Shown here: in pieces, positions 1,799-32,038 of the stretch | Numbering within the stretch: position 1 is the stretch's first letter | How the letters are laid out: every line of letters begins with the position of its first letter | From: Sphingomonas bacterium | GTDB lineage: Bacteria; Pseudomonadota; Alphaproteobacteria; Sphingomonadales; Sphingomonadaceae | Length of the DNA stretch: 32,038 nucleotides | Direction of reading: 5' to 3' | Assembly: GCF_903644055.1 (NCBI RefSeq) | Contig: NZ_CAHJXD010000002.1 | Span: 1 to 32,038, forward strand | Made by a program: the position numbers and the translations under genes | Notes under the pieces: model-generated | What the model was told of the DNA's origin: nothing | Database searches by the model: none | Seen by the model: only the letters and a program-made list of their open reading frames with translations

Positions 1799-2491
1799 TC
1801 AGGCAGCCTGCTTCGTCCGGCGCATCTTGGAAATACGCAGGTCGCCGGGAGACAGGCCCTTGACCAGGTTCAGCAGCGAATTCACCGCCATGATCTTGAT
1901 CTGGGGCATCTGGCCTTCCCACGGCTTCTGATAGCCCGCGAAGATCGTGGTTCCTTCCATCGTCGCGCTGATGAAGAGTGCCACCATGCAGCATTCCTCC
2001 TCGTCCAGCCGAGGATTGACCGCGCTGACGGCGGACGCGATTCCGCGCTGCGCGCGTGCGTAGAAGTCCTGGACGAGCGCGTTGACCTTCTCGTCATGGT
2101 TGGCGAGCGCCCAAAGCTCGGGGAAAAGATTGGTCGTCAGCTTGGAGCGGATGTCGTCCAGCGTGAAGGCGATCATGCGGCGGAGGCGCTCTTCGGGCTG
2201 ATCGACCGTGCCCTCGCGCAAGCCGGCGGAAATATCGGCATAGCCATTGAGGATGGCTTCCAACAATTGCTGGACCAAATCTTCCTTGCGCGGGAAATAA
2301 TAGCTGAGATTTCCCACCTTCATGCCGCATTCCGCCGCAATCCGGCGTAACGTGAACGCCCGCGATCCTTCCTCGACGAGCACGCTCAACGCAGCCCGAA
2401 GGATGTGCTCGATCGTCTCCGTGCCGCACGCATAGGCGCCCGGTCGCACCCTTATACGCAGCGGCGGGACGCTTTCCTGATCCTGCTCCAT
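1799..2491 (-). CDS. TetR/AcrR family transcriptional regulator
   Basis: The product has about 230 aa with a typical N-terminal TetR DNA-binding domain: TIEHILRAALSVLVEEG, FTLRRIAAECGMKVGNLSYYFPRKEDLVQQLL at about residues 25-75 (HTH recognition helix GMKVGNLSYYF). An all-alpha ligand domain follows (MIAFTLDDIRSKL, and later MVALFISATMEGTTIFAGY). I chose the ATG at 2489-2491 because ggag lies about 8 nt upstream; a further in-frame start gives 245 aa. It lies between the cytochrome c gene and the SMP-30-like gene on the same strand, 97 nt downstream of the aau-type operon end. It is therefore a candidate regulator of that operon, of itself, or both. The inducer is unknown. Confidence 0.85.
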   Translation of the reverse strand: MEQDQESVPPLRIRVRPGAYACGTETIEHILRAALSVLVEEGSRAFTLRRIAAECGMKVGNLSYYFPRKEDLVQQLLEAILNGYADISAGLREGTVDQPEERLRRMIAFTLDDIRSKLTTNLFPELWALANHDEKVNALVQDFYARAQRGIASAVSAVNPRLDEEECCMVALFISATMEGTTIFAGYQKPWEGQMPQIKIMAVNSLLNLVKGLSPGDLRISKMRRTKQAA

Positions 2492-2587
2492 AACTCCATT
2501 TTCCTTTTGCGGAGTCCGCCCATGCCATCGAAACAAGCTTATGCAAGTCTGCGGTCCTTGATCTCGATTAGATGCGAATTGCTCCGG

Positions 2588-3100
2588 TTAGTTCCGTGCA
2601 GGCGTCCCTTGCGATGGAAAAAGCTGTCGTAACGAGGCAGGCGCCTTGCACGTGCGCACAAGGCGCTCGACCAGCGCGGCGCGCAGTGCCTTCAAAGAAG
2701 CGTCGTTCAGCGCATGCGGGCGCTCGCGCGCCACTTCTTCCGCGGTGAAGGGCGGCGCATCGGCGGGCGCGCTCGCGCCGCCGAGATCGAAGACGACATA
2801 ATTGAGGAGGTCGGCCAGTTCCGCATTGTCGGTGATGCGCGAGTGGGAGACGTTCGGCAGCCGGATCAGATAGGCGCGCGCGTCGGGCCGACAGAGGAAA
2901 TAGCCGACGCGGTCGCGCAGCACGGGCAGCAACGCCGGCGCCGAATTGCCGGTGATGCCATGGCAGCCGCCGCAATTCTCGATATAATCCGATCGCGCCT
3001 GAACGGGATCGGCGATCTTGCCGACCGCTCCGCTCGCGATCGCCGCACCGGCGGCGCCGCAGGCAAGGAAGATCAGCGCCGCGAGGCGGATGTCCGCCAT
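2588..3100 (-). CDS. Mono-haem c-type cytochrome of the amine dehydrogenase operon
   Basis: The product has 170 aa with an N-terminal hydrophobic export segment (residues 4-25) and a single haem motif CGGCH at residues 43-47, within YIENCGGCHGITG. A globular part follows (LIRLPNVSHSRITDNAELADLLNYVVFDL). There is no methionine after the haem motif, so the usual Met axial ligand is missing; His near residue 87 (PNVSHSR) is a possible sixth ligand. It starts 9 nt after the light chain gene, so it is the last gene of the aauBEDA-like operon. Genes for mono-haem cytochromes are known next to aromatic amine dehydrogenase genes. It probably accepts or relays electrons from the TTQ enzyme in the periplasm, or helps in cofactor maturation. 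Confidence 0.8.
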   Translation of the reverse strand: MADIRLAALIFLACGAAGAAIASGAVGKIADPVQARSDYIENCGGCHGITGNSAPALLPVLRDRVGYFLCRPDARAYLIRLPNVSHSRITDNAELADLLNYVVFDLGGASAPADAPPFTAEEVARERPHALNDASLKALRAALVERLVRTCKAPASLRQLFPSQGTPARN

Positions 3101-3109
3101 GGCTTGCTC

Positions 3110-3655
3110 CTATTGCGCGGCACCCACCAGCACCGCCGTCGAGCAATGATATTCCATGCTGCTCGTGCCGAAGCACCAGATGATATTGTTGTTGAGCTGC
3201 TGGAGGTAGAGCTGCGTCTCGCGATCGGTATTGTCGCAGCCGCACTGGCCGCACGCCGGCTTGCCGCAGCAGTCACGATAGGCGATCAGATAGGCCTTGC
3301 CCTGATCCGGGTTGATGCAGGTGCCGACCCAGGAAATCGGCGACGGCTGCGCGCCGGCCGGGCAGGCGTTGACCGCACCGCCGCAGCAGGAGCAGAGCGA
3401 GCCGTCGATCGCGCAATAGCGCCAGTAATCGCACTTCGTATCGTCCTTGGTCTGCGCGCTGCGGGCGAAGCTGGTCTTGGCCTCCACCGAACGATCCGGC
3501 TTCTGCGCCTCCGCCCGGCTGACGGGCAGCAGCGGGAAGGCGGGCGCCGCGACCAGCACGGCACCCAGCTTCGTCAGCAGGCCGCGCCGCGAGCTGGACC
3601 CCGCGAACCGCCGCAGCAGGCGTTCGCCGATGACGTCGGCCTTCGAGCTGTCCAT
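3110..3655 (-). CDS. aauA: Aromatic amine dehydrogenase light (beta) chain, TTQ-bearing
   Basis: The product has 181 aa and is the catalytic small subunit of a tryptophan-tryptophylquinone amine dehydrogenase (RCH2NH2 to aldehyde plus ammonia, periplasm). A twin-arginine-like leader (SSRRGLLTKLG, residues 21-31) ends near AEA at 48-50. The cofactor pair is Trp109 (PSPISWVGTC) and Trp160 (NNNIIWCFG). The catalytic-base Asp128 (AYRDCCG) and Asn156 are present. These numbers coincide with those I know for Alcaligenes AADH. Fourteen cysteines include Cys91 and Cys135, which methylamine dehydrogenase lacks as I recall its sequence, so the chain is AADH-like rather than MauA-like. Position 172, Thr in AADH, is Ser here (HCST). 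The start at 3655 follows agggaaggg; a longer reading is possible but lacks that site. The chain should be co-exported folded with its partner. Confidence 0.9.
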   Translation of the reverse strand: MDSSKADVIGERLLRRFAGSSSRRGLLTKLGAVLVAAPAFPLLPVSRAEAQKPDRSVEAKTSFARSAQTKDDTKCDYWRYCAIDGSLCSCCGGAVNACPAGAQPSPISWVGTCINPDQGKAYLIAYRDCCGKPACGQCGCDNTDRETQLYLQQLNNNIIWCFGTSSMEYHCSTAVLVGAAQ

Positions 3656-3686
3656 ATTCTGCCCTTCCCTGAAATAGTGACCGCGC

Positions 3687-4286
3687 TCAGGCCTTGACCT
3701 TGAGCCCGTTGATATAATCCTGCACCGAACGCAGCCCCATCTCATGCGCTACGATGAGGCTCTCGAGATGTTCGCGGCTGTTGACCAGGCCCTTCGAAAG
3801 CACCGTCCCCGCCGCATCCATCAGGACGGCGTGCGGCAGCTTGTCGACGTGGAAGGCGTGGCCGACTTCGGGGCCGTTGATGAACCGGTAATTTTCCAGG
3901 CCCTGCGCGGCGATCATCCGACGCTGCACCTCCACATCATCGTCACCGACGAAGACCAGTTCGACGCGCTCGGCCTTGGCAAAGGATTTGGCGGCAGGGA
4001 TGAGGTTCTTGCACAGCGGGCATTCGGCCGAGACGAACATCAGCAGCCGCATCGCGGCGCCATGCAGCGCGCCGCCGATTTCCACGGTTTTGCCGTCGAG
4101 CGCGGTGAGGTGGAGATGGGGCGCGGCATCGCCGACGGCCGGGCCGCGATCGTTGGTCAGCGCACCAGCGGGGGCCACCCGCATGTGCAGCACGCCGACC
4201 TGCCTGGCGAGCGCCAGCAGGCCGACCGAAAGGCCGAGGATCACGAGCCAGGACAGGCTCTGCGAGACGAGGAGGGCAGTCAGCAT
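3687..4286 (-). CDS. aauD: Thioredoxin-like amine dehydrogenase maturation protein, MauD/AauD type
   Basis: The product has 199 aa. One N-terminal membrane anchor (residues about 8-28, LSWLVILGLSVGLLALA) is followed by a periplasmic thioredoxin-like domain (GDAAPHLHLTALDGK). The active-site motif CPLC is at residues 89-92 (SAECPLCKNLIP), and the cis-Pro region is KLPHAVLMD. MauD-type proteins are required for correct disulfide formation in the cysteine-rich light chain, which here has 14 Cys. The gene lies between aauE and aauA, with 40 nt to the former and 31 nt to the latter, the usual B-E-D-A order. The start at 4286 fits the membrane anchor; aagga lies about 10 nt upstream. Confidence 0.88.
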   Translation of the reverse strand: MLTALLVSQSLSWLVILGLSVGLLALARQVGVLHMRVAPAGALTNDRGPAVGDAAPHLHLTALDGKTVEIGGALHGAAMRLLMFVSAECPLCKNLIPAAKSFAKAERVELVFVGDDDVEVQRRMIAAQGLENYRFINGPEVGHAFHVDKLPHAVLMDAAGTVLSKGLVNSREHLESLIVAHEMGLRSVQDYINGLKVKA

Positions 4287-4326
4287 CGGCGGCGTCCTTG
4301 TCGATGAACGTGTCGGTAGGGCGTAG

Positions 4327-4863
4327 TCAGGCAGCGAATGGCGATGAGGCCGAAAGCGCCAGCAGCGCATCGAGCAACAGCAGGAGCAGGCAGGCGGCGA
4401 TGCCGGCGGCGGCGGCCAGCGCCAGGCTCACGACAGGCAGCGCACCGGGCGCGAGGAGCAGCGGCAGCAGTGCTGCGGCGAGCAGCACGTTGCGGAGCAC
4501 CAGCGCCCGGTGCAGCGACTGCCGCAGTCCGCCGAAGCCGCAGCCGCAGTCGATATGGCTGCGGCCGCGACGGATGTTCTTGTCCATGGCAAAGGCGAAG
4601 ATCAGCAGCAGCACGGCCGCGGGCGCGGCGGCATAAGCGGCGGGCCGTCCGCCGACGAGCAGCGCCGCGCCGAGCAAAAGTTCCGCCCAGGGCAGAAGCG
4701 TCGCCGCCGGCCGCACCAGCGGCGCAGGCAGCAGGCGGTAGTTGGCGATCACCGCCGGCAATAAAGCGCGATGCCGTAACTTGCCGAAGGCGGCCCAGCA
4801 GAACAGGATCCCGATGCAGGTTCCCGCCGCCGCGCCGAAGGAAAGGGCGAGCATCCCGAGCAT
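4327..4863 (-). CDS. aauE: Membrane protein for amine dehydrogenase maturation, MauE/AauE type
   Basis: The product has 178 aa, rich in Ala and Leu, with about four membrane segments (near residues 3-23, 50-68, 75-93 and 120-170, the last probably two helices). It has the MauE/DoxX-like layout. The loop MDKNIRRGRSHIDCGCGFGG carries the paired cysteines (HIDCGCGFG) typical of MauE. It probably passes redox equivalents across the membrane to the MauD-type partner. The start at 4863 lies 4 nt after the aauB stop, so translation is probably coupled. Upstream in-frame starts would overlap aauB and add a basic, proline-rich tail that does not look like the family. Confidence 0.85.
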   Translation of the reverse strand: MLGMLALSFGAAAGTCIGILFCWAAFGKLRHRALLPAVIANYRLLPAPLVRPAATLLPWAELLLGAALLVGGRPAAYAAAPAAVLLLIFAFAMDKNIRRGRSHIDCGCGFGGLRQSLHRALVLRNVLLAAALLPLLLAPGALPVVSLALAAAAGIAACLLLLLLDALLALSASSPFAA

Positions 4864-4867
4864 CGCC

Positions 4868-6130
4868 TCAGCCGCCGGTGATGGTCGAGGGCGTCGGCTT
4901 GGGCGCGGCTTCGGCCAGCGGCGCGGTTGCCGGCGTACCGACATCGGCAACGTAGATCATGCCTTGGCCGGTCTTCTCGATCTTGCGCTTTTCTTCCATG
5001 GTCTTGGCGTCGAGCACGTAGGTGGTGCCCTCCTTGTCGTTGACGAAGATCAGCGGCGCCGCATCCTGCGTCACCTCGATATTGTTGACCGGGCTCTTCA
5101 GGGGGCGGCGCTTGACCACCTTGCGCTGCGCCAGATCGAGATCCCAAATCTCGTCGCCGCCTTCCTTGTGCGACCAGAATTCACCCTTGTGCATGAGCAC
5201 GAAGACATGACCGCTGAGCTTGTGCATCGCCATCAGCGCGCCGCCGCCGGGAAGCCAGTTGACCACCAGCGGCCTCGTCTCGCCCTTGGGGACGCCTGCG
5301 GCTTCCTGGATCGAGAAAGGTGGCGCGATGCTGGGCGCGGGCCCCATCGTCGCCTCGTAGACCAGCCCCGAATAGCTGATGAAGATCGTCCGTTTCTTGG
5401 TCTTGTCGTAGACCGAGTTGCTGAAGATCGGATCGGCGGTCGCCGAGAAGAAGGGTGCGCTGTGCGTGATCTTCGGCTTGGCCGCCGTTGTATCGACCGT
5501 GGCGAGCGAACCGTCCGAGCAGAGCGCCGAGAAACCGACGCCGGGATTGGGGATCAGGCTGGCGCAGCCGGGCAGCTCGATCGCCCGGACGAACTTGCGC
5601 CTGACCAGATCGACCATGTTGACCGACGAGGCCGGATCGTAATTGTAGACGTAGGCGGTGCTGCCGTCGTCGCTCAGGATGAAGTTGGTCTTGAAGCCGC
5701 CGACGATGATGTGGCCGGGTATCGGGATCTCGGCTTGCAGCTTCAACTGCGTCGTATCGTAGATCGCGACGAAATCCTGGCGCGTGCCGCGATCGCTCTT
5801 CGTCCAGATCGTGTCGGCGACGTAATAATATTTGCCGGCGGGATCGATCGCGATGTCGGCGCGGCTACTGTTGTCGACTTCGCCGCGCATCTTGCCGGTG
5901 GCGCCGTCGAAGATGCGCGTGCCGCCGAGGCCGTAGCCGCCGCGGACATATTCCCACTGCGGTTGCGGCGGAAGCATCGTCAGCGTGGTCGCCTCTTCGG
6001 CCTTCAGCTCGGTCGGCTGCGGCTGGGGGGGCGCCGGCGGCGTCTCGGTGACCTGCGCCGAAGCCGCACCGGCGACGAGGATCGCCGCGCTTGCCAGCAG
6101 AGCCCGCCATGTGGAAGCTGCGACCGTCAT
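4868..6130 (-). CDS. aauB: Aromatic amine dehydrogenase heavy (alpha) chain
   Basis: The product has 420 aa. A signal peptide of about 25 residues ends ASA before QVTETPP. A proline-rich linker then leads to a seven-bladed propeller of the amine dehydrogenase heavy-chain family (YVYNYDPASSVNMVDLVRRK, GRADIAIDPAGKYYYVADT-like blade edges, GEFWSHKEGGDEIWDLDL). The heavy chain frames the active-site channel over the TTQ subunit in an alpha2beta2 periplasmic enzyme. It is the first gene of the minus-strand operon aauB-aauE-aauD-aauA-cytochrome c, divergent from the cytochrome gene at 6304. The aau symbol rather than mau rests on the light chain being AADH-like. The actual amine, aromatic or aliphatic, is not shown by the sequence. 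Confidence 0.88.
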   Translation of the reverse strand: MTVAASTWRALLASAAILVAGAASAQVTETPPAPPQPQPTELKAEEATTLTMLPPQPQWEYVRGGYGLGGTRIFDGATGKMRGEVDNSSRADIAIDPAGKYYYVADTIWTKSDRGTRQDFVAIYDTTQLKLQAEIPIPGHIIVGGFKTNFILSDDGSTAYVYNYDPASSVNMVDLVRRKFVRAIELPGCASLIPNPGVGFSALCSDGSLATVDTTAAKPKITHSAPFFSATADPIFSNSVYDKTKKRTIFISYSGLVYEATMGPAPSIAPPFSIQEAAGVPKGETRPLVVNWLPGGGALMAMHKLSGHVFVLMHKGEFWSHKEGGDEIWDLDLAQRKVVKRRPLKSPVNNIEVTQDAAPLIFVNDKEGTTYVLDAKTMEEKRKIEKTGQGMIYVADVGTPATAPLAEAAPKPTPSTITGG

Positions 6131-24267: not shown

Positions 24268-25566
24268 GTGTCGATCGATTTGACGAAGCTCGCCGCAGAT
24301 AAAGAGATCAAGTATTTCCTGATCTCCTATACGGATCTGTTCGGCAGCCAGCGAGCCAAGCTGGTTCCGGCGAGCGCGATCGCCGGCATGCAAAAGAATG
24401 GGGCGGGGTTCGCCGGCTTTGCCACCTGGCTCGATATGTCTCCGGCCGACTCCGATCTTCTCGCGCTGCCGGATCCCGAAAGCCTGATCCAGTTGCCGTG
24501 GAAACCGGATGTGGGCTGGCTTGCCGCTGATCTGTGGATGAACGGGAAACGGGTCGAGGCCAGCCCGCGTAATGCTCTCAAGCGCCAGATCGCGAAGGCA
24601 GCCGAACTGGGCCTACAGATGAAGACCGGCGTCGAATGCGAATTCTTCCTGATAACGCCGGATGGCGAGCGCATTGCGGATCAGGCCGATACGCAGAGCA
24701 AGCCCTGTTATGACCAGCAGGCCCTGATGCGCCGTTATGATGTCATCACGGAAATCTGCGACAGCATGCTCGCGCTCGGCTGGCAGCCATATCAGAATGA
24801 TCATGAGGATGCGAACGGCCAGTTCGAGATGAACTGGCATTATGACGATGCTCTTCTCACTGCGGATCGACATGTATTCTTCAAATTCATGGCGAAGTCG
24901 ATCGCGGAGAAGCATGGGCTTCGCGCAACATTCATGCCGAAACCGTTCATCAACCTCACCGGTAACGGCTGCCACATGCATGTGTCGCTTTGGCGCAGCG
25001 AGACCAATGCGTTCGAGGACGCCGCCGGCGCCGATGGACTGTCGGATCTGGCGCTCCATTTCATTGGCGGCGTCATCAATTCCGCCGATGCGTTGGCCGC
25101 ATTCCTGAATCCGACGATCAACAGCTACAAGCGGATCAATGCGCCGCGGACCGCTTCTGGAGCGACGTGGGCACCCAATTCGGTGACCTGGACGGGCAAT
25201 AACCGCACGCACATGATCCGTGTGCCTGACAGTGATCGCTTCGAGCTCCGTCTGGCCGATGGTGCGACCAATCCCTACCTGATGCCCGCGGCGACGCTTG
25301 CGGCCGGCCTGGACGGCATTTCGGCACGCCGTGATCCCGGTCCGCGGCTCGACATCAATATGTATACGGACGGTCATTCGATCGCCGACACCAAGAAGCT
25401 GCCGCTCAATCTGCTCGATGCGCTGCGGGCACTCGAAGCGTCTGCCGTCATGCAGGAAGGGTTGGGCGAGGTCGTTCCGGCCTATCTCAAGCTTAAAAAC
25501 TCCGAGTGGAACGATTTCTGCCGGCATCTGACTGATTGGGAGCGTGGCCACACGCTCGATTGCTAG
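24268..25566 (+). CDS. gmaS: Gamma-glutamylmethylamide synthetase (glutamine synthetase family)
   Basis: The product has 432 aa starting at GTG 24268, with gggggg about 9 nt upstream. It has a glutamine synthetase beta-grasp (YFLISYTDLFGSQRAKLVP) and a catalytic domain with TGVECEFFL. The segment EDANGQFEMNW at 180-190 is characteristic of GmaS and used to recognise it. It also has GNGCHMHVSLW, then NSYKRIN and the RFELRLADGATNPYL region. It joins methylamine to glutamate with ATP, the entry step of the NMG pathway, in the cytoplasm. It follows mgsC by 62 nt and probably shares its transcript. Confidence 0.93.
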   Translation: MSIDLTKLAADKEIKYFLISYTDLFGSQRAKLVPASAIAGMQKNGAGFAGFATWLDMSPADSDLLALPDPESLIQLPWKPDVGWLAADLWMNGKRVEASPRNALKRQIAKAAELGLQMKTGVECEFFLITPDGERIADQADTQSKPCYDQQALMRRYDVITEICDSMLALGWQPYQNDHEDANGQFEMNWHYDDALLTADRHVFFKFMAKSIAEKHGLRATFMPKPFINLTGNGCHMHVSLWRSETNAFEDAAGADGLSDLALHFIGGVINSADALAAFLNPTINSYKRINAPRTASGATWAPNSVTWTGNNRTHMIRVPDSDRFELRLADGATNPYLMPAATLAAGLDGISARRDPGPRLDINMYTDGHSIADTKKLPLNLLDALRALEASAVMQEGLGEVVPAYLKLKNSEWNDFCRHLTDWERGHTLDC

Positions 25567-26003
25567 GCGAGGAGTGGTTCGCCCAGGCCGACACCATGGG
25601 GGGATGTGTTTTCTACCGCGTGATCGTCGAGGAAGCGGGTCGGTGGACGTCCTGTGGGTTGACGGGCCGGCTGGCCGGTAGCCATCCGACATCCCTATTT
25701 TCCGGTCGGGGAATCAAGCATTTGCAAAGCGATCAGGCCCGGAGCCTGAGCGCCGGAGGGGCTGCTCGAGGACGGCCTCAATTACCCCAAACTGCAAAAT
25801 ATTCCTGAGAAGAAAATCTGTTGACATGTCCGAATCGATCGGTATCAATCTGCCATAGTTGGTTTGTTCTTCAATCGCTGATCTTAGCGAACTAAAGAAG
25901 TAATTATACTAATAGATACCGGAGGGGAATGCTGACGCGGACACGATGCTAACAAGCGCGTGCCAGTGGGGAAGTATTATGTTATCTATATAGGGGGAAT
26001 TAC
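25567..26003. promoter_or_regulatory. 437-nt intergenic region before TonB receptor 2
   Basis: No convincing gene lies here; a 90-codon open frame starting inside gmaS lacks features. From about 25800 the base composition turns AT-rich, unlike the surroundings. A good candidate promoter is ttgaca (25821-25826) with tatcaa (25843-25848), a 16-nt spacer, over a loosely palindromic ccgaatcgatcgg. A strong ribosome binding site (aggggga) precedes the receptor start at 26004. The leader from this promoter would be about 150 nt, long enough for further control. Confidence 0.4.
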
Positions 26004-28856
26004 ATGGCCGATCGTAGATTTCGCCATCGGGCCGTTGCGATACTTCTGATTGGCACAGCGGGTGTGTGCGCGCATTCGGCTTCTGCGCAGTCTGTAATAT
26101 CCTCCTCTTCCGCCGCCAAGTCGGGCGAAAGCCAGACCGATAGCGCAGGAAGCGACGCGATTGTCGTTACCGGCACCCGCATTGTCCGTGACGGATATCA
26201 GTCGCCCACCCCGACCACCGTGCTCGGCGTCGAGGAGCTTCAGCGCAAGGCGCCGATAAACATCGCCGATCAGGTCAACCAGCTCCCGTCGCTGGCTGGA
26301 AGCTCCCGGAACAACACCAACAGCATCAGCGGTGGCGGCATCGGCGTGAACTCGCTGAACCTGCGTAACCTCGGCGTGACGCGCACCCTGATCCTGCTCG
26401 ATGGTCAGCGCATGCCGGCGGCCACCACGGGCGGCGCCGTCGACGTCAACACGATCCCGAACAACTTGGTCAAGCGCGTGGACATCGTGACCGGCGGCGC
26501 TTCGGCGGCATGGGGCTCCGATGCGGTCGCAGGCGTCGTCAATTTCGTGCTCGATAAGGATTTTACTGGGATCAAGGGCGATATCGTGGGCGGCATCACC
26601 ACCTACGGCGACGATCCAACCTTCAAGGCTTCCATCGCTGCCGGCACCCACTTCGCCGACGGTCGCGGTCACATCATGGTCAGCGGCGAAGTCGCCTATG
26701 ACGACGGCATTCGAAAGATGCCGCGTTCCTGGTTCCGCGGCACCAAGCAGCTTTTCAGCCCGACCTATACGGCGACCAATGGCCAGCCCGAACTCCTCGT
26801 CCGCGAGAATGTCGGCTACACCACGCTGGCGCCCGGCGGCATCGTGACGGCGGGGCCGCTGCGCGGCCTCTATTTCGGGCCGAACGGCACGCCCACCCAG
26901 CTAAATTACGGCTCGATCGTTCGCGATCCCAGCATGGTCGGCGGCGACTGGCAGGTCACCGATTTCGCGACCACCACCGAAAGCCTGCTGCCGACCGTCT
27001 CGCGCCAGAACGCGTTCGGCCGCGCCAGCTATGAAATTTTCGACAATGTCGAAATCTATGGCCAGTTTTCCTACGGCCGGTCGAAGGTCAAGGAGTTGAG
27101 TTCGCCGCAATATCAATTCGGCGGGCTCACGATCCAGCGCGACAATGCGTTCCTGCCGGCCTCGGTTGTGTCACGGATGCAGTCGCTCGGGCTGACGAGC
27201 CTGACGATAGGCACGAGCAACGACGCGATCGGCCCGGTTCCCTATACGGGCACCCGCGAAATGTATCGGTATGTGGTGGGTGCGAACGGCAAGTTCCGCG
27301 CGCTCGGCACCGACTGGTCGTGGGATGTCTTCTACAACCGCAACATTACCGATCTTTACCAAAATTCGCGCGTCGGCGTGAATGCCAACTATGCCAGGGC
27401 GATCGACGCGGTGATCGGACCGAACGGCTCGATCGTCTGCCGTTCGACGCTTACGGACCCGACGAACGGCTGCGCACCGCTCAATATCATCGGCACCGGC
27501 GTCGCGACGCAGAGTGGCCTGAACTACGTCCTCGGCAATTCGGTCCTCAACAACAAATTCACCCAGCAGGAATATGCCGCCTCGATGCGCGGCGAGCCCT
27601 TCTCGACCTGGGCAGGCCCGGTTTCGGTGGCATTCGGCGTGGAGCATCGGAGCGAAGCGTCCAGCGGCACCAACGATCCGATCTCGCGCACGAACGGCTT
27701 CTTCTACGGAAACTACAAGCCGCTCAATGGCTCGTACAAGGTGACGGAAGGCTTCTTCGAAACCGTCGTCCCGCTTGTGAAGGATACCTCCTGGACCAGG
27801 TCGCTCGATTTCAACGGGGCGGTCCGCATCACGGATTACAGCACATCCGGCCGCGTCACGACGTGGAAGGTCGGTGGCGTCTGGAAGCCGATCGATGACA
27901 TCACGCTTCGTATCACGCAGTCCCGCGATATTCGGGCCGGCAATCTTTCGGATCTTTATCAGGTGGGCCGGACGGGCACGATCTCGATCAACGATCCGGC
28001 GCGCAACAACGAATCCTACACGATCGTGTCGAGCACGGTCGGAAATACCGAAATCAAGCCCGAAAAGGCCAGATCGTTCAATGTCGGCGGCGTCGTCCAG
28101 CCACGCTTCCTTCCGGGCTTTTCGATCGCGGTCGATTACTTCTCGATCGACGTCAGAGGCGTGATCGCAACCCTGACCGCGCCCAACCTCCTCAATCTTT
28201 GCTACACCGGCGGCGATCAAAGCCTCTGCCAGTTCGTCGCCCGCAATTCGGCCGGATTGATCTCTACGATCACGCTGAAGCCGGTCAATCTCGCGCGGCA
28301 GAGGGTGCGCGGCATCGATTTCGAGGCCAGTTATCAGGTGCAGTTGAGCGATATTTCGTCGTCCTTGGGTAACGGGCGGTTTACGCTGCGCGCGCTGGCC
28401 AGCCATTATCTGCAAGCCGTCACGGATACCGGCATCATCGGGAACGTCCCGCAAGTGGCGCTGGGTGCTGCCGAAGGGACGCCGCGCTGGCGCTACCGGG
28501 TCGAGGGCACCTATTCCAACGAGCGCATCACCGCTTCGATCACCGGGCGCGGCGTCAGCTCCGGCGTTCTCTCGCCTATGTATATCGAATGCACCACCAA
28601 CTGCCCGGTCTCGACCGCCAACAACCGGACGATCGACAATAATCATGTCGACGGCGCGCTCTACTTTGATGCGTCTTTCAGCGTGAAGATCACACCCGGT
28701 CTCGAGAGCTTCCTGGTGGTCGAGAATTTCACCAATAAGGATCCGGCACAAGTTGCCAGCGGGACCAGCGTCGCCGGCGCGCAATGGGGTGTCTCCGGCC
28801 TCTATTACGATCTTTACGGCCGCACGTTCCGGGCCGGCATCCGCTTCAAATACTGA
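26004..28856 (+). CDS. TonB-dependent outer-membrane receptor 2
   Basis: The product has 950 aa. A signal peptide (MADRRFRHRAVAILLIGTAG, cleavage near ASAQS) precedes a plug domain opening with IVVTGTRIVRDGYQSPTP. The plug continues with NSLNLRNLGVTRTLILLDGQR and VKRVDIVTGGASAAWGSDAV, the layout of the large sphingomonad/xanthomonad receptor group. The long barrel ends YGRTFRAGIRFKY with a terminal aromatic residue. It is unlike receptor 1 in the plug motif and length, so the two probably take different ligands. Positioned 168 nt ahead of the flavin oxidase, cytochrome and RidA genes on the same strand, it is the likely import route for their substrate. Confidence 0.93.
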   Translation: MADRRFRHRAVAILLIGTAGVCAHSASAQSVISSSSAAKSGESQTDSAGSDAIVVTGTRIVRDGYQSPTPTTVLGVEELQRKAPINIADQVNQLPSLAGSSRNNTNSISGGGIGVNSLNLRNLGVTRTLILLDGQRMPAATTGGAVDVNTIPNNLVKRVDIVTGGASAAWGSDAVAGVVNFVLDKDFTGIKGDIVGGITTYGDDPTFKASIAAGTHFADGRGHIMVSGEVAYDDGIRKMPRSWFRGTKQLFSPTYTATNGQPELLVRENVGYTTLAPGGIVTAGPLRGLYFGPNGTPTQLNYGSIVRDPSMVGGDWQVTDFATTTESLLPTVSRQNAFGRASYEIFDNVEIYGQFSYGRSKVKELSSPQYQFGGLTIQRDNAFLPASVVSRMQSLGLTSLTIGTSNDAIGPVPYTGTREMYRYVVGANGKFRALGTDWSWDVFYNRNITDLYQNSRVGVNANYARAIDAVIGPNGSIVCRSTLTDPTNGCAPLNIIGTGVATQSGLNYVLGNSVLNNKFTQQEYAASMRGEPFSTWAGPVSVAFGVEHRSEASSGTNDPISRTNGFFYGNYKPLNGSYKVTEGFFETVVPLVKDTSWTRSLDFNGAVRITDYSTSGRVTTWKVGGVWKPIDDITLRITQSRDIRAGNLSDLYQVGRTGTISINDPARNNESYTIVSSTVGNTEIKPEKARSFNVGGVVQPRFLPGFSIAVDYFSIDVRGVIATLTAPNLLNLCYTGGDQSLCQFVARNSAGLISTITLKPVNLARQRVRGIDFEASYQVQLSDISSSLGNGRFTLRALASHYLQAVTDTGIIGNVPQVALGAAEGTPRWRYRVEGTYSNERITASITGRGVSSGVLSPMYIECTTNCPVSTANNRTIDNNHVDGALYFDASFSVKITPGLESFLVVENFTNKDPAQVASGTSVAGAQWGVSGLYYDLYGRTFRAGIRFKY

Positions 28857-29024
28857 CCGATCTGAACAGGCTAGGCAGGGGTTTTCCGGGATGAGCCGTC
28901 TTTCAATCGCTGGCGCTCCTTCGATCATAGGGATCCCCGCCGCCGCCGCGCATAGCTTTGTCGAAGCCTGCTCGCACGGGCGCCGCCCGCGTGAGAAGCA
29001 GCAATCCCGGTAAGGAAAAAAGCA

Positions 29025-30608
29025 ATGGACCTACCCTCGGTATCCCGTCGATCCCTGCTAAGCCTTATCGGGACGGTCGCCGGTTCGTCGGCCATGTATC
29101 AGGCCATGGCGGCAATGGGGCAGACGCAGGAGTCCCATTATACCGGCCCGCTCAAGCTGGACGGCGATCCCAAGGGGGCCTCGGTCGTCATCCTCGGCGC
29201 CGGGCTTGCCGGCATGACCTCCGCTTATGAGCTCAAGAAGGCCGGCTACAAGGTCACGGTTCTCGAATATCAGGACAGGACCGGCGGGCGAAACTGGTCA
29301 ATTCGGGGCGGAGATACCATCCGTGAGATCGGATCGACGCAGAGGTGCGAATTCGATGCCGGCTTTTATCTCAATCCGGGGCCTTGGCGGATTCCGTACC
29401 ACCACCACGCGATCATCAATTATTGCCGCGAATTTGGCGTCGCGCTGGAGCCGTTTCACCAGATCAACAACAATGCATTCGTGCACAATACAGCCGCTTT
29501 TGGCGGCAAGCCGAAGCGGTATCGCGAGGTCGAGAACGACTTTCACGGGCATGTCGCCGAGTTGCTGGCGAGGGCGACGAACCAGAGCGCGCTGGATCAG
29601 AGCGTCTCCAAGGAGGATCGCGAGATCCTGCTCGAGGCGCTCAAGAACTGGGGCGCCCTCGACAATCAGTATCGCTATGCCAAGTCGGAGCTGGTGTCGG
29701 AACGGCGCGGATATGACGTGCTCGTCGGTGCCGGCTCGATCCCGCCGGTTTACTCACAGCCGCTGGAACTCGACGAACTGCTGCAATCGCGGCTCTGGAG
29801 GTCGCTCGCGGGATCGCACAGCTTCGATATGCAGCCTACCATCTTCCAGCCGGTCGGCGGCATGGGCAAGATCGGCGATGCCTTCGCGCGGGAGATCGGG
29901 CCCGGCGTCATCAAGATGAATTGTCGCGTCGTGAAGATCGATCAGGACGATAAGGGCGTTACCGTGAGCTATGTGGATCCGCTGAAGGGCGGCCCCACGC
30001 AGACGATCGCCGCGCAATGGTGCATCAACACCATCCCGGCGCCGGTTCTTTCCCGTCTGCCCATGCAGATCAGCAGCAGCTTGCGGGCCGCGATCGATGC
30101 GGTCGCGCCTTATGGCACCAATTTCAAGGCCGGCCTACAGATGAAGCGCCGGTTTTGGGAGGAGGATGAGCTGATCTTCGGCGGCTTCAGCAACACCAAT
30201 CTGTCGATTCGTCAGATCGGCTATCCCAACAGCGCCTATGCCACACGCGGCAAGGGCGTGCTGCTGGGGGCCTATATCGGCGGCCCCGGCTGTTACGAAT
30301 ATGCGGTGATGGATCCGAAGGATCGGCTGAAGCGGATCGTGGCCGAGGGCACTCAAATCCACCCGCAATATCGGGAAGAATATGAAAACGGGATCACGGT
30401 CGCCTGGAGCCGAATTCCGTGGACGATGGGCTGCCTCTCCAATTGGACGGAGGAGCGCCGGAAGGAGCATTATGAGGCGCTCATCGCCATCGATGGCCGG
30501 ATGATGCTCGCTGGGGAGCATGCATCTTACGGTATCTGGCAGGAGCATGCGATCCTGTCGGCTCTGGATGCCGTCAAGCGTCTTCACGCACGCATCACCG
30601 CTGCATGA
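29025..30608 (+). CDS. Tat-exported flavin amine oxidase/dehydrogenase
   Basis: The product has 527 aa. The N-terminus SRRSLLSLIGTVAG (from residue 7) is a twin-arginine signal, implying export with FAD bound. The FAD-binding Rossmann motif is VVILGAGLAGMTSAYEL (GAGLAG at 58-63) with Glu81, and RTGGRNW follows at 85-91. The C-terminal AGEHASYGIWQEHAILSAL is the second FAD contact of flavin monoamine oxidases (MAO, LAAO, nicotine oxidase group). It should oxidise an amine C-N bond to an imine in the periplasm. The ATGA overlap with a cytochrome c gene suggests cytochrome rather than oxygen as acceptor, as shown for the nicotine enzyme NicA2. The start has aaggaaa about 9 nt upstream. The substrate is unknown. 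Confidence 0.88.
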   Translation: MDLPSVSRRSLLSLIGTVAGSSAMYQAMAAMGQTQESHYTGPLKLDGDPKGASVVILGAGLAGMTSAYELKKAGYKVTVLEYQDRTGGRNWSIRGGDTIREIGSTQRCEFDAGFYLNPGPWRIPYHHHAIINYCREFGVALEPFHQINNNAFVHNTAAFGGKPKRYREVENDFHGHVAELLARATNQSALDQSVSKEDREILLEALKNWGALDNQYRYAKSELVSERRGYDVLVGAGSIPPVYSQPLELDELLQSRLWRSLAGSHSFDMQPTIFQPVGGMGKIGDAFAREIGPGVIKMNCRVVKIDQDDKGVTVSYVDPLKGGPTQTIAAQWCINTIPAPVLSRLPMQISSSLRAAIDAVAPYGTNFKAGLQMKRRFWEEDELIFGGFSNTNLSIRQIGYPNSAYATRGKGVLLGAYIGGPGCYEYAVMDPKDRLKRIVAEGTQIHPQYREEYENGITVAWSRIPWTMGCLSNWTEERRKEHYEALIAIDGRMMLAGEHASYGIWQEHAILSALDAVKRLHARITAA

Positions 30609-31006
30609 GCAAGCTGAAGGGAAAGCCTGTGAAAACCAAATTCTCTCGCGTGTTGCTGCTTGCAACGATTGCGGCTTGCGCGTCCGGTGAGGCGTCGGCC
30701 CAGCAACGGCCGACGAAGACCGGAAAGCAGGTCTTCGAGACGGTCTGCCAAGCCTGCCATCTCCCGGGAGGCGTCGGTGACGCGGGAACCTATCCGGCGC
30801 TCGCCAAGAATCCGAAACTTCAGAACGCTCAATATCCGGCTTACGTCGTCGTCAACGGGCTAAAGGCCATGCCGGCCTTAGGCGCCCTGCTGAACGATGC
30901 GGAGATCGCCGGTGTCGTAACCTATATTCGAACGAACTTCGGCAACAAATACAATAAGCCGGTCACGCCCGAAGACATCAAGGCTCTGCGCAAACCGGTC
31001 AAATAG
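30605..31006 (+). CDS. Cytochrome c partner of the flavin amine oxidase
   Basis: The product has 133 aa with a signal peptide ending ASA (about residue 32), haem motif CQACH at 48-52 followed by LPGGVGDAG, and a probable Met ligand at 89 (GLKAMPALG). It is a normal small class I cytochrome. The ATG at 30605 overlaps the oxidase stop (ATGA). An in-frame GTG at 30629 has a better ribosome binding site (aagggaaag) and gives a cleaner signal peptide, so translation may begin there. It is the likely electron acceptor for the flavin enzyme, feeding the respiratory chain. Confidence 0.88.
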   Translation: MSKLKGKPVKTKFSRVLLLATIAACASGEASAQQRPTKTGKQVFETVCQACHLPGGVGDAGTYPALAKNPKLQNAQYPAYVVVNGLKAMPALGALLNDAEIAGVVTYIRTNFGNKYNKPVTPEDIKALRKPVK

Positions 31007-31076
31007 ATCGGCCGCTCATGGCCGATAGAATCCAAGATCATTCCGCCGGAATACCGGTTTCGCGAAAGGTTCGTTC

Positions 31077-31586
31077 ATGCGCATGTTCCTAGCTGCCGCC
31101 TGTGTCGCTGCGATCCTGGGTGCCGCTGCCGCGCCGGCCGCCGACATAGTGCGCCACCAGCTTACGCCACCGGGGCTGATCCTGCAGAGCGCCACGGTCC
31201 CTGCCGGCGCCGAGATGCTCTATCTGTCGGGCCAGCTCGCCAGCCCGATAGATCCGGCCAAGAAGCCTGCTCCCGGCGCGCCGCTGACGCGGGCCGATTA
31301 CGGCGACACCAAGACGCAGACGATCAGCGCGCTCACCAATATGAAGCAGGTTCTGGCCGAGCGCGGCTACAAGATGTCGGACGTCATCACGATGATGACA
31401 TATTTGGCCGCTGATCCCGAACTTGGCGGGAAGTTGGATACTGCCGGATATAACGAAGGATTCAAGATGTTCTTCAAGACGGCGGAAAATCCAGAAACAG
31501 TTACGCGTGCTAGCGTACAGGTCGCTGCACTGGTAAATCCGGCCTTGCTTGTCGAGATTGTCGTCGTCGCGGCGAAAAACCGTTAA
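31077..31586 (+). CDS. Secreted RidA-family imine deaminase
   Basis: The product has 169 aa: a signal peptide (residues 1-22, MRMFLAAACVAAILG, ending PAA) followed by a YjgF/RidA domain (LYLSGQLA, QTISALTNMKQVLAERGYKMSDVITMMTYL). Arg144 (VTRASVQVAAL) and Glu160 (LLVEIVVVA) match the Arg and Glu needed for imine hydrolysis in RidA, so it appears active. RidA proteins are usually cytosolic; an exported form next to an exported imine-producing oxidase suggests it completes the hydrolysis of the imine in the periplasm. It lies 70 nt after the cytochrome gene; aaagg precedes the start by about 7 nt. Confidence 0.88.
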   Translation: MRMFLAAACVAAILGAAAAPAADIVRHQLTPPGLILQSATVPAGAEMLYLSGQLASPIDPAKKPAPGAPLTRADYGDTKTQTISALTNMKQVLAERGYKMSDVITMMTYLAADPELGGKLDTAGYNEGFKMFFKTAENPETVTRASVQVAALVNPALLVEIVVVAAKNR

Positions 31587-31722
31587 ACTAATCTGTGGTA
31601 AATGTGTATGAGTGTAATGAATCCCATGTATACGGTGTATTGTGCCAACAGCGGATGACGCTGGAAGAGGTCGAAGCCCATTGTCGAGCAGCTTACGACA
31701 AGCACCGGCAGTGAAGTGTCGC
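31587..31722. other. Short unassigned stretch after RidA
   Basis: No terminator hairpin or recognisable gene was seen directly after the RidA stop. A short plus-strand frame (MTLEEVEAHCRAAYDKHRQ) ends near 31714 and looks protein-like but cannot be placed. The stretch is the junction between the catabolic genes and IS debris. Confidence 0.3.
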
Positions 31723-31863
31723 TCAAATGGAAATCGACGCTGCGGTGCCATCCTGCCTTGATCGGTCTGAGGTTCGTACGTGATCGAGAACGCTGGATGT
31801 TATCCTGGCGAGTTTGACGCAGCCGAGGATGTTGGCGGCGAGTTCGTCATAGCGTGTAGCGAT
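31723..31863 (-). pseudogene. C-terminal fragment of an IS5-type transposase
   Basis: On the minus strand the frame reads IATRYDELAANILGCVKLARI and then an altered tail ending at a stop at 31723-31725. The IATRYDxLAANFL pattern is the typical C-terminus of IS5-family (IS427-like) transposases. The upstream part of the gene is missing: sequence similarity stops at about 31863 within a few bases. It marks the right boundary of the accessory region. Confidence 0.7.
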
Positions 31864-31898
31864 GTGACCCCATTACTTGAGCGACCTTTGTAGTCGCG

Positions 31899-31926
31899 GG
31901 ATTTGGTGTGTCGGGTGTGAGGTGGA
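31899..31926. repeat. Right copy of 28-nt direct repeat bracketing the region
   Basis: It matches 563-590 at 26 of 28 positions in the same orientation. It begins about 35 bp beyond the IS5-type fragment. The sequence from here to the window end has no recognisable gene. The copy could be a shared IS terminus or a junction left by recombination. Confidence 0.6.
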
Positions 31927-32038
31927 GCGGTGTGTCTCTTTGAGCCATGTTTTGCAGACAGCTGGGCACCCGCATCAACGTGTCGCTGGCGGCGGTAGGG
32001 CATGCCGAGAGCATGGTTTGCCTCTCTGCCGTCTGAAG

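Follow-up and report, generated by a model that had tools for sequence, protein, structure and literature searches.

What does a Rid protein with an export signal do beside a flavoenzyme that also appears to leave the cytoplasm? The Rid paradigm is protection of cytosolic pyridoxal phosphate (PLP) enzymes, the classical victims of imines. The question is raised by a locus in a Sphingomonas bacterium (RefSeq assembly GCF_903644055.1; 2.41 Mb in 297 contigs, rated 92% complete), of which we analyzed positions 1 to 32,038 of contig NZ_CAHJXD010000002.1; this 32,038-nucleotide stretch is referred to here as the window. As an earlier, sequence-only reading had described, and as we confirmed, four genes lie on one strand (+) between positions 26004 and 31586 and encode a TonB-dependent receptor (26004 to 28856), a flavin adenine dinucleotide (FAD) amine oxidoreductase (29025 to 30608), a cytochrome c (30605 to 31006), and a Rid protein (31077 to 31586). 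The genes for the flavoenzyme, which is of the L-amino-acid oxidase (LAAO) family, the cytochrome c, and the Rid protein form one co-directional cluster of the lao-cccA-ridA composition. It is probable (about 0.75, in our estimate) that the operon is an extracytoplasmic L-amino-acid deamination unit of this known type. The signal sequences, by motif and heuristic, and the gene order are seen directly here, as is the conservation of both.

Export signals and conservation of the Rid protein

The Rid protein (169 aa; PF01042) begins with MRMFLAAACVAAILGAAAAPAA, a Sec-type signal by a home-made heuristic that scores a hydrophobic 10-mer, a positive n-region, and small residues thereafter. The flavoenzyme begins with SRRSLLS followed by a hydrophobic stretch, which is a Tat signal by motif, and the cytochrome has a Sec signal peptide; the claim that all three soluble proteins carry export signals is therefore borne out by motif and heuristic. 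By the same heuristic, 53 of the 59 related Rid loci encode a signal peptide, the 59 being those returned by the Rid searches of the own genome, the family, the class, and the phylum, and the expectation that Rid proteins of the triplet would carry signal peptides holds. A lipobox is present in 6 of the 53; the same destination is thus served by two kinds of signal. The six loci without a signal comprise a broken frame (L041), a fragment (L102, genome G729), two remote Rids (L042 and L043), and two that are intact (L097 and L099). Five further good Rid places in family genomes had no locus; that of G079 was scored as L103, and the other four, which lie outside the 59 (L124, L125, L126, and L133; genomes G031, G118, G035, and G076), start with a signal peptide as judged by eye. 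By eye, signal peptides also appear to be present in other sphingomonad Rid-like proteins outside the clade (L187, L189, L195, L198, L210, L211, and L212).

L097 (G707) and L099 (G759) are the sole intact close relatives that lack a signal; they come from one genus and start with MSDSIQRTS. In the neighboring oxidase of these genomes the motif TRREAL is kept, but Glu, Lys, and Asp residues fall within the supposed Tat hydrophobic stretch, and there is no adjacent cytochrome c. The sister in the tree, L167 (G562, same genus code g418), keeps both the Tat stretch and a Rid that is exported by its signal. The G707 Rid closely matches PSPTO3006 (E 9.4e-73), whose chain also starts with MSDSIQRTS and, unlike the window Rid, has no signal peptide. 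To judge from these N termini, the G707/G759 case reads as one event in which oxidase and Rid relocated jointly to the cytoplasm.

The best Protein Data Bank (PDB) matches of the window Rid are 9bkc (PFL1385) and 9bka (PSPTO3006), both classed as Rid3 (PMC5619798), a subfamily in which the catalytic Arg and Glu are kept and the active-site Tyr is replaced by Ile (PMC4433059). Arg144 and Glu160, which the sequence-only reading had reported as intact, are so, and they are invariant in 52/52 aligned relatives (52 of 53 rows, L037 being left out). Ile35 is likewise present in 52/52, placed at the Tyr17 site by its N-terminal position and not by alignment with TdcF. By its Arg, Glu, and Ile residues, the window protein is assigned to Rid3. 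Rid3 homologues hydrolyze the imines that an amino-acid oxidase produces, as well as iminoarginine when paired with D-arginine dehydrogenase; PFL_1385 and PSPTO_3006, the nearest solved relatives, act on LAAO-made imines, and the main text of that work makes no reference to export, with 0 occurrences of "signal," "periplasm," or "export" (PMC5619798). The proposed role of the window Rid on an imine is supported by analogy with these homologues.

The Rid and the oxidase also occur together across genomes. Among 119 genomes of the family, a close Rid was found in 26 at E < 1e-20 and in 28 at the looser E 0.001, whereas 20 had the oxidase (E 1e-40), and all 20 oxidase genomes were within the 26 Rid genomes (Fisher test, 9e-18); 33 of 39 family Rid rows were counted, those left out being a second fragment in G029, weak second matches in G083, G011, and G001, and the weak genomes G095 and G115. 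The Rid was found in 11, the oxidase in 19, and both in 10 of 337 class genomes (p 2e-13), and the corresponding numbers for 398 phylum genomes were 25, 27, and 24 (p 4e-34); the larger runs scored the first few candidates per genome, and genomes without a match may be overcounted. Pooling of the three samples, which share a few genomes, gave 54 genomes with the Rid and 58 with the oxidase, 46 genomes having both; all of these tests are without kinship correction.

The order oxidase-cytochrome-Rid was seen in several classes and in a metagenome-assembled genome (MAG) of the Campylobacteraceae, which belongs to another phylum. Matches were present in 36 plasmid records, of which 10 were inspected, chosen for variety. 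Five of these 10 loci (Comamonas, Microvirga, Sulfitobacter, Paracoccus, and Ketogulonicigenium) had the order oxidase-cytochrome-Rid, and their Rids all carried a signal peptide by eye (5/5); the remaining five had no Rid in the stretch, and a cytochrome c was adjacent in 10/10 by annotation or CxxCH frame. The triplet extends beyond this genome: conservation of the exported Rid together with the oxidase spans the Pseudomonadota and reaches one MAG of the Campylobacterota. By these co-occurrence counts and the tree counts given below, uncorrected for kinship, the gene arrangement exceeds chance.

The flavoenzyme and its probable cytochrome partner

The flavoenzyme (527 aa; PF01593, E 3.1e-48) had been assigned to the NicA2 type, an assignment that did not hold: its leading PDB matches are L-amino-acid oxidases. 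The best is the Rhodococcus opacus enzyme roLAAO (2jae; E 2.8e-86, residues 47 to 525, a full-length similarity), which belongs to the same enzyme family, with identity at 176 of 469 aligned residues. A profile built from six oxidases of the own genome found 2jae at E 1.9e-135, followed by further L-amino-acid oxidases (one named merely "Amine oxidase") and L-glutamate oxidases. No match named NicA2 appeared among the best 60 of 94 PDB matches in the single-sequence search or the best 60 of 107 in the profile search, and none of the latter 60 bore the name nicotine oxidoreductase. The own genome holds five further full-length paralogues of the oxidase (L011 to L015, on contigs C250, C155, C140, C12, and C117), four of which adjoin a cytochrome c of their own.

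In the 2jae alignment, chain positions 83 (Arg) and 370 (Tyr) correspond to R122 and Y417 of the window enzyme. These positions are presumably Arg84 and Tyr371 of roLAAO, which we take to be the residues that bind the substrate carboxylate; a literature search for such a role of Arg84/Tyr371 found no paper. R122 is kept in 79/79 oxidase relatives and Y417 in 63/79. Because the enzyme belongs to the LAAO family and keeps both residues, an L-amino acid is the likelier substrate than the simple amine that had been suggested.

The class I (c6-like) cytochrome c (PF13442/PF00034) has the heme motif CQACH. Its reported 4-nucleotide overlap with the oxidase gene stands if translation starts at the ATG at 30605 and falls if it starts at the in-frame GTG at 30629, which leaves a 20-nucleotide gap. 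The GTG is preceded by GAAGGGA and yields a more typical signal peptide; it appears the more likely start, and the overlap is hence uncertain.

On a tree of 79 oxidases (the partial match L110 being left out), 52 adjoin a cytochrome c and 27 do not; three of these labels (L164, L168, and L183) were set by hand, the automatic filter having missed them. All 49/49 oxidases in the clade of the window enzyme (SH-aLRT 99) adjoin a cytochrome c, and the label changes only 2 times on the tree compared with 22.7 for shuffled labels, with 0 of 500 shuffles as low. Outside this clade, in other classes of the phylum, L166, L174, and L179 have a two-heme cytochrome, c4-like by eye, next to a divergent oxidase in place of a single-heme one. 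Stopped-flow work on amine dehydrogenases has indicated that a Tat signal together with an adjacent cytochrome c gene marks a dehydrogenase (PMC12224317), and both the Tat signal and the adjacent gene for a Sec-signal cytochrome c are present in the window. Because of the clade-wide pairing and this rule, cytochrome-c-linked dehydrogenation, as the sequence-only reading had supposed, is likely to be the chemistry of the window enzyme. A Deinococcus radiodurans plasmid record (L217, 3161 to 5545) has a cytochrome c gene upstream of an oxidase of this family with an RR signal, and no Rid in the stretch, which shows that the oxidase/cytochrome pair is present in yet another phylum.

The receptor gene that opens the cluster encodes a 950-aa protein with an N-terminal signal peptide and the Pfam domains Plug and TonB_dep_Rec_b-barrel. 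Of the 79 oxidases, 36 have a TonB receptor gene no more than 4.5 kb away, which makes uptake of the substrate through the window's own receptor plausible.

Known systems and competing explanations

The operon type has been described before. In Gluconacetobacter diazotrophicus PAL5, lao, cccA, and ridA (GDI2456-2454) form one operon of LAAO-family, cytochrome c, and Rid genes, as in the window, with a Tat signal on the LAAO; Tn5 insertions in lao abolished the formation of indole-3-acetic acid (IAA) from Trp, the deamination in this founding case being that of Trp to indole-3-pyruvate, and cytochrome maturation (ccm) mutants from earlier work that this study cites made 5% IAA (PMC5053998). Caulobacter and Xanthomonas share the conserved cluster, and it was already hypothesized that the cytochrome and Rid assist the LAAO (PMC5053998). 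The window unit differs in including a TonB receptor and in having methylamine genes as neighbors, and the portion of the Gluconacetobacter account used here does not discuss export of the Rid. NicA2/Pnao-CycN and other Tat amine dehydrogenases resemble the window in pairing a Tat flavoenzyme of the flavoprotein amine oxidoreductase superfamily with an adjacent Sec cytochrome c, whereas those enzymes were gathered as NicA2 relatives and the window enzyme is of LAAO type; "RidA" has 0 occurrences in the main text of that study (PMC12224317). In Chlamydomonas, LAO1 and LAO2/RIDA are placed in the periplasm, so that, as in the window, a periplasmic LAAO and a RidA partner come from one gene cluster; this system differs in that it belongs to an alga, is described as making hydrogen peroxide, and has no cytochrome c named in the cluster in the part of the account drawn on here (PMC10805672). 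Clustering of Rid3 and amine oxidase genes has also been noted (PMC4433059).

The suggestion that an exported RidA beside its imine source is not a described system was therefore too strong and mostly wrong: neither the triplet nor the idea is new, a periplasmic LAAO with RidA is also in print, and the mechanism is plausible and has mostly been proposed already. The RidA of chitin oxidation (OngD), considered as a precedent for export, was rejected; it is a 127-aa protein whose pathway is placed in the cytoplasm (PMC9537276). The portions consulted of PMC7688666 (nicotine, Rid6) and PMC8854710 contained no exported Rid, and no statement that the bacterial Rid of a lao-cccA-ridA-type unit is exported was found in open-licence PMC papers, supplements lying outside the search. 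As far as this search reached, what is apparently new is how general Rid export is, together with its link to export of the oxidase.

Several observations weigh against a cytochrome-linked deamination unit with a dedicated exported Rid. The nearest solved relative, roLAAO, carries the name of an oxidase, and within the same body of papers we found no assay in which a member of the LAAO branch favored cytochrome over O2, although no search was aimed solely at that point. The window oxidase has no canonical AxA cleavage site. At the thresholds used, 12 of the 58 pooled oxidase genomes have no Rid and 8 of the 54 Rid genomes have no oxidase, and only 47 of the 79 oxidases have a Rid gene within 4.5 kb. 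The two export signals are jointly lost in one event only, confined to one genus. When the signal-peptide heuristic was applied to a control set of 29 loci, drawn from 59 family genomes with the RidA model TIGR00004, 8/29 were flagged; on inspection, 7 of these resemble real signal peptides of other Rid-like proteins and 1 looks like a false call; six canonical-looking RidAs in the set were not flagged. The control is not clean, yet its rate is far below 53/59. Finally, in seven loci (L016 at 2353 to 6030, L107, L121, L122, L127, L131, and L132) a Rid that is exported by its signal immediately adjoins a TonB receptor, and the stretch taken contains no oxidase, on whose products such a pair may still act if the oxidase is unlinked; further lone Rids likewise lack an oxidase there. 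Besides the Rid of the window, the own genome has one further Rid, exported by its signal, next to a TonB receptor.

These points bear on three other explanations. The enzyme could be a true O2-using periplasmic L-amino-acid oxidase that makes peroxide, with the cytochrome c serving otherwise, for example, in peroxide removal. The name of roLAAO fits this idea, as does the presence of an RR motif and hydrophobic stretch in 24 of the 27 relatives that have no cytochrome alongside, which implies that export needs no cytochrome; the unbroken pairing within the clade of the window enzyme and the prediction, by stopped flow, of Tat enzymes with an adjacent cytochrome c as dehydrogenases (PMC12224317) speak against it, and we regard a peroxide-forming enzyme as unlikely. 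The exported Rid might instead serve the TonB receptor or some other periplasmic reaction and not the imine of the oxidase, as the seven receptor-Rid pairs would suggest. Against this, the catalytic Arg and Glu are invariant, the order oxidase-cytochrome-Rid is kept in several classes and another phylum, and the oxidase and Rid signals decay together in G707/G759, all of which make a separate function of the Rid improbable.

The third explanation concerns the substrate, which would be an N-methyl amine or N-methyl amino acid whose released methylamine feeds gmaS, mgsABC, the sarcosine-oxidase-like mgd, and methylamine-dehydrogenase-like genes. It takes its appeal from the genes upstream of the cluster. 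Between 14508 and 25566 (+) lie sarcosine-oxidase-like soxB, soxA, and soxG, purU, GATase, GXGXG, and glutamate-synthase genes, and a type III glutamine synthetase gene; with a PuuR-like regulator gene, also upstream, this set resembles what we take to be the N-methylglutamate route for methylamine. In addition, oxidases are more common in family genomes with gmaS (6/10 versus 14/109, p 0.0015, kinship uncorrected; gmaS relatives occur in 10 of the 119), and in G011 gmaS and the oxidase are 18 kb apart. Against this, relatives of gmaS, mgsC, soxB, and the methylamine dehydrogenase heavy chain occur in 0/88 other loci (about 6 kb on each side, less at contig ends), and in the window gmaS is separated from the oxidase by a 437-nucleotide gap and the TonB receptor gene. 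A methylamine link as a conserved feature was therefore rejected, leaving just a weak genome-level association; the upstream genes are a local peculiarity, the association is a lead only, and an N-methylated substrate is quite doubtful.

Other features of the window were recorded. Methylamine-dehydrogenase-like genes lie at 3110 to 6130; the region from 2588 to 6130 (-) encodes small and large subunits scoring 178 and 142 bits, under the NCBIfam cutoffs of 197 and 454, together with a MauD-like gene and a CGGCH open reading frame (ORF) without a Pfam match, and these genes possibly specify an aromatic or other amine dehydrogenase. Just before the contig end, at about 31790 to 31860 (-), a short stretch with interrupted frames resembles what we take to be the end of an IS5-type transposase. 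A promoter and terminator scan of 25500 to 32038 gave nothing exceeding shuffles. Neighbors beyond the four genes that might hint at the substrate included recurrent ORF families, the largest of them found in 14 of 88 loci, and no family was present in most loci.

Proposed working and implications

It can be proposed that the TonB receptor would bring the substrate, a free amino acid, a derivative, or a small peptide, into the periplasm, where the Tat-exported flavoenzyme would grip the alpha-carboxylate through Arg122 and Tyr417, as the roLAAO alignment suggests, and take a hydride to give the imino acid. By analogy with measurements on the related Tat enzymes that have an adjacent cytochrome c (PMC12224317), electrons from the reduced FAD would reach the terminal oxidase by way of the operon's cytochrome c, so that little peroxide would form. 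The Sec-exported Rid3 would then hydrolyze the imino acid, releasing the 2-oxo acid and ammonia, an activity known from homologues (PMC5619798) and placed in the periplasm here by prediction.

It seems to us about evenly balanced whether a broader proposal is correct, namely, that there is an extracytoplasmic branch of the Rid family, the Rid3 clade seen here, whose members hydrolyze the imine of a pathway outside the cytoplasm and do not serve to protect cytosolic PLP enzymes. On this view the branch shares its compartment with an amino-acid dehydrogenase that is exported by Tat and linked to cytochrome c, and the two lose their signals jointly on a move to the cytoplasm. For a Rid that is conserved, exported, and linked to an imine source in the periplasm, a rationale other than the classical one would be called for, such as product clearance, throughput, or protection of the envelope, and the three-gene system would make that rationale testable in a simple setting. 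It would also extend the rule for cytochrome-c-linked dehydrogenases from NicA2-like enzymes to the amino-acid-oxidase branch.

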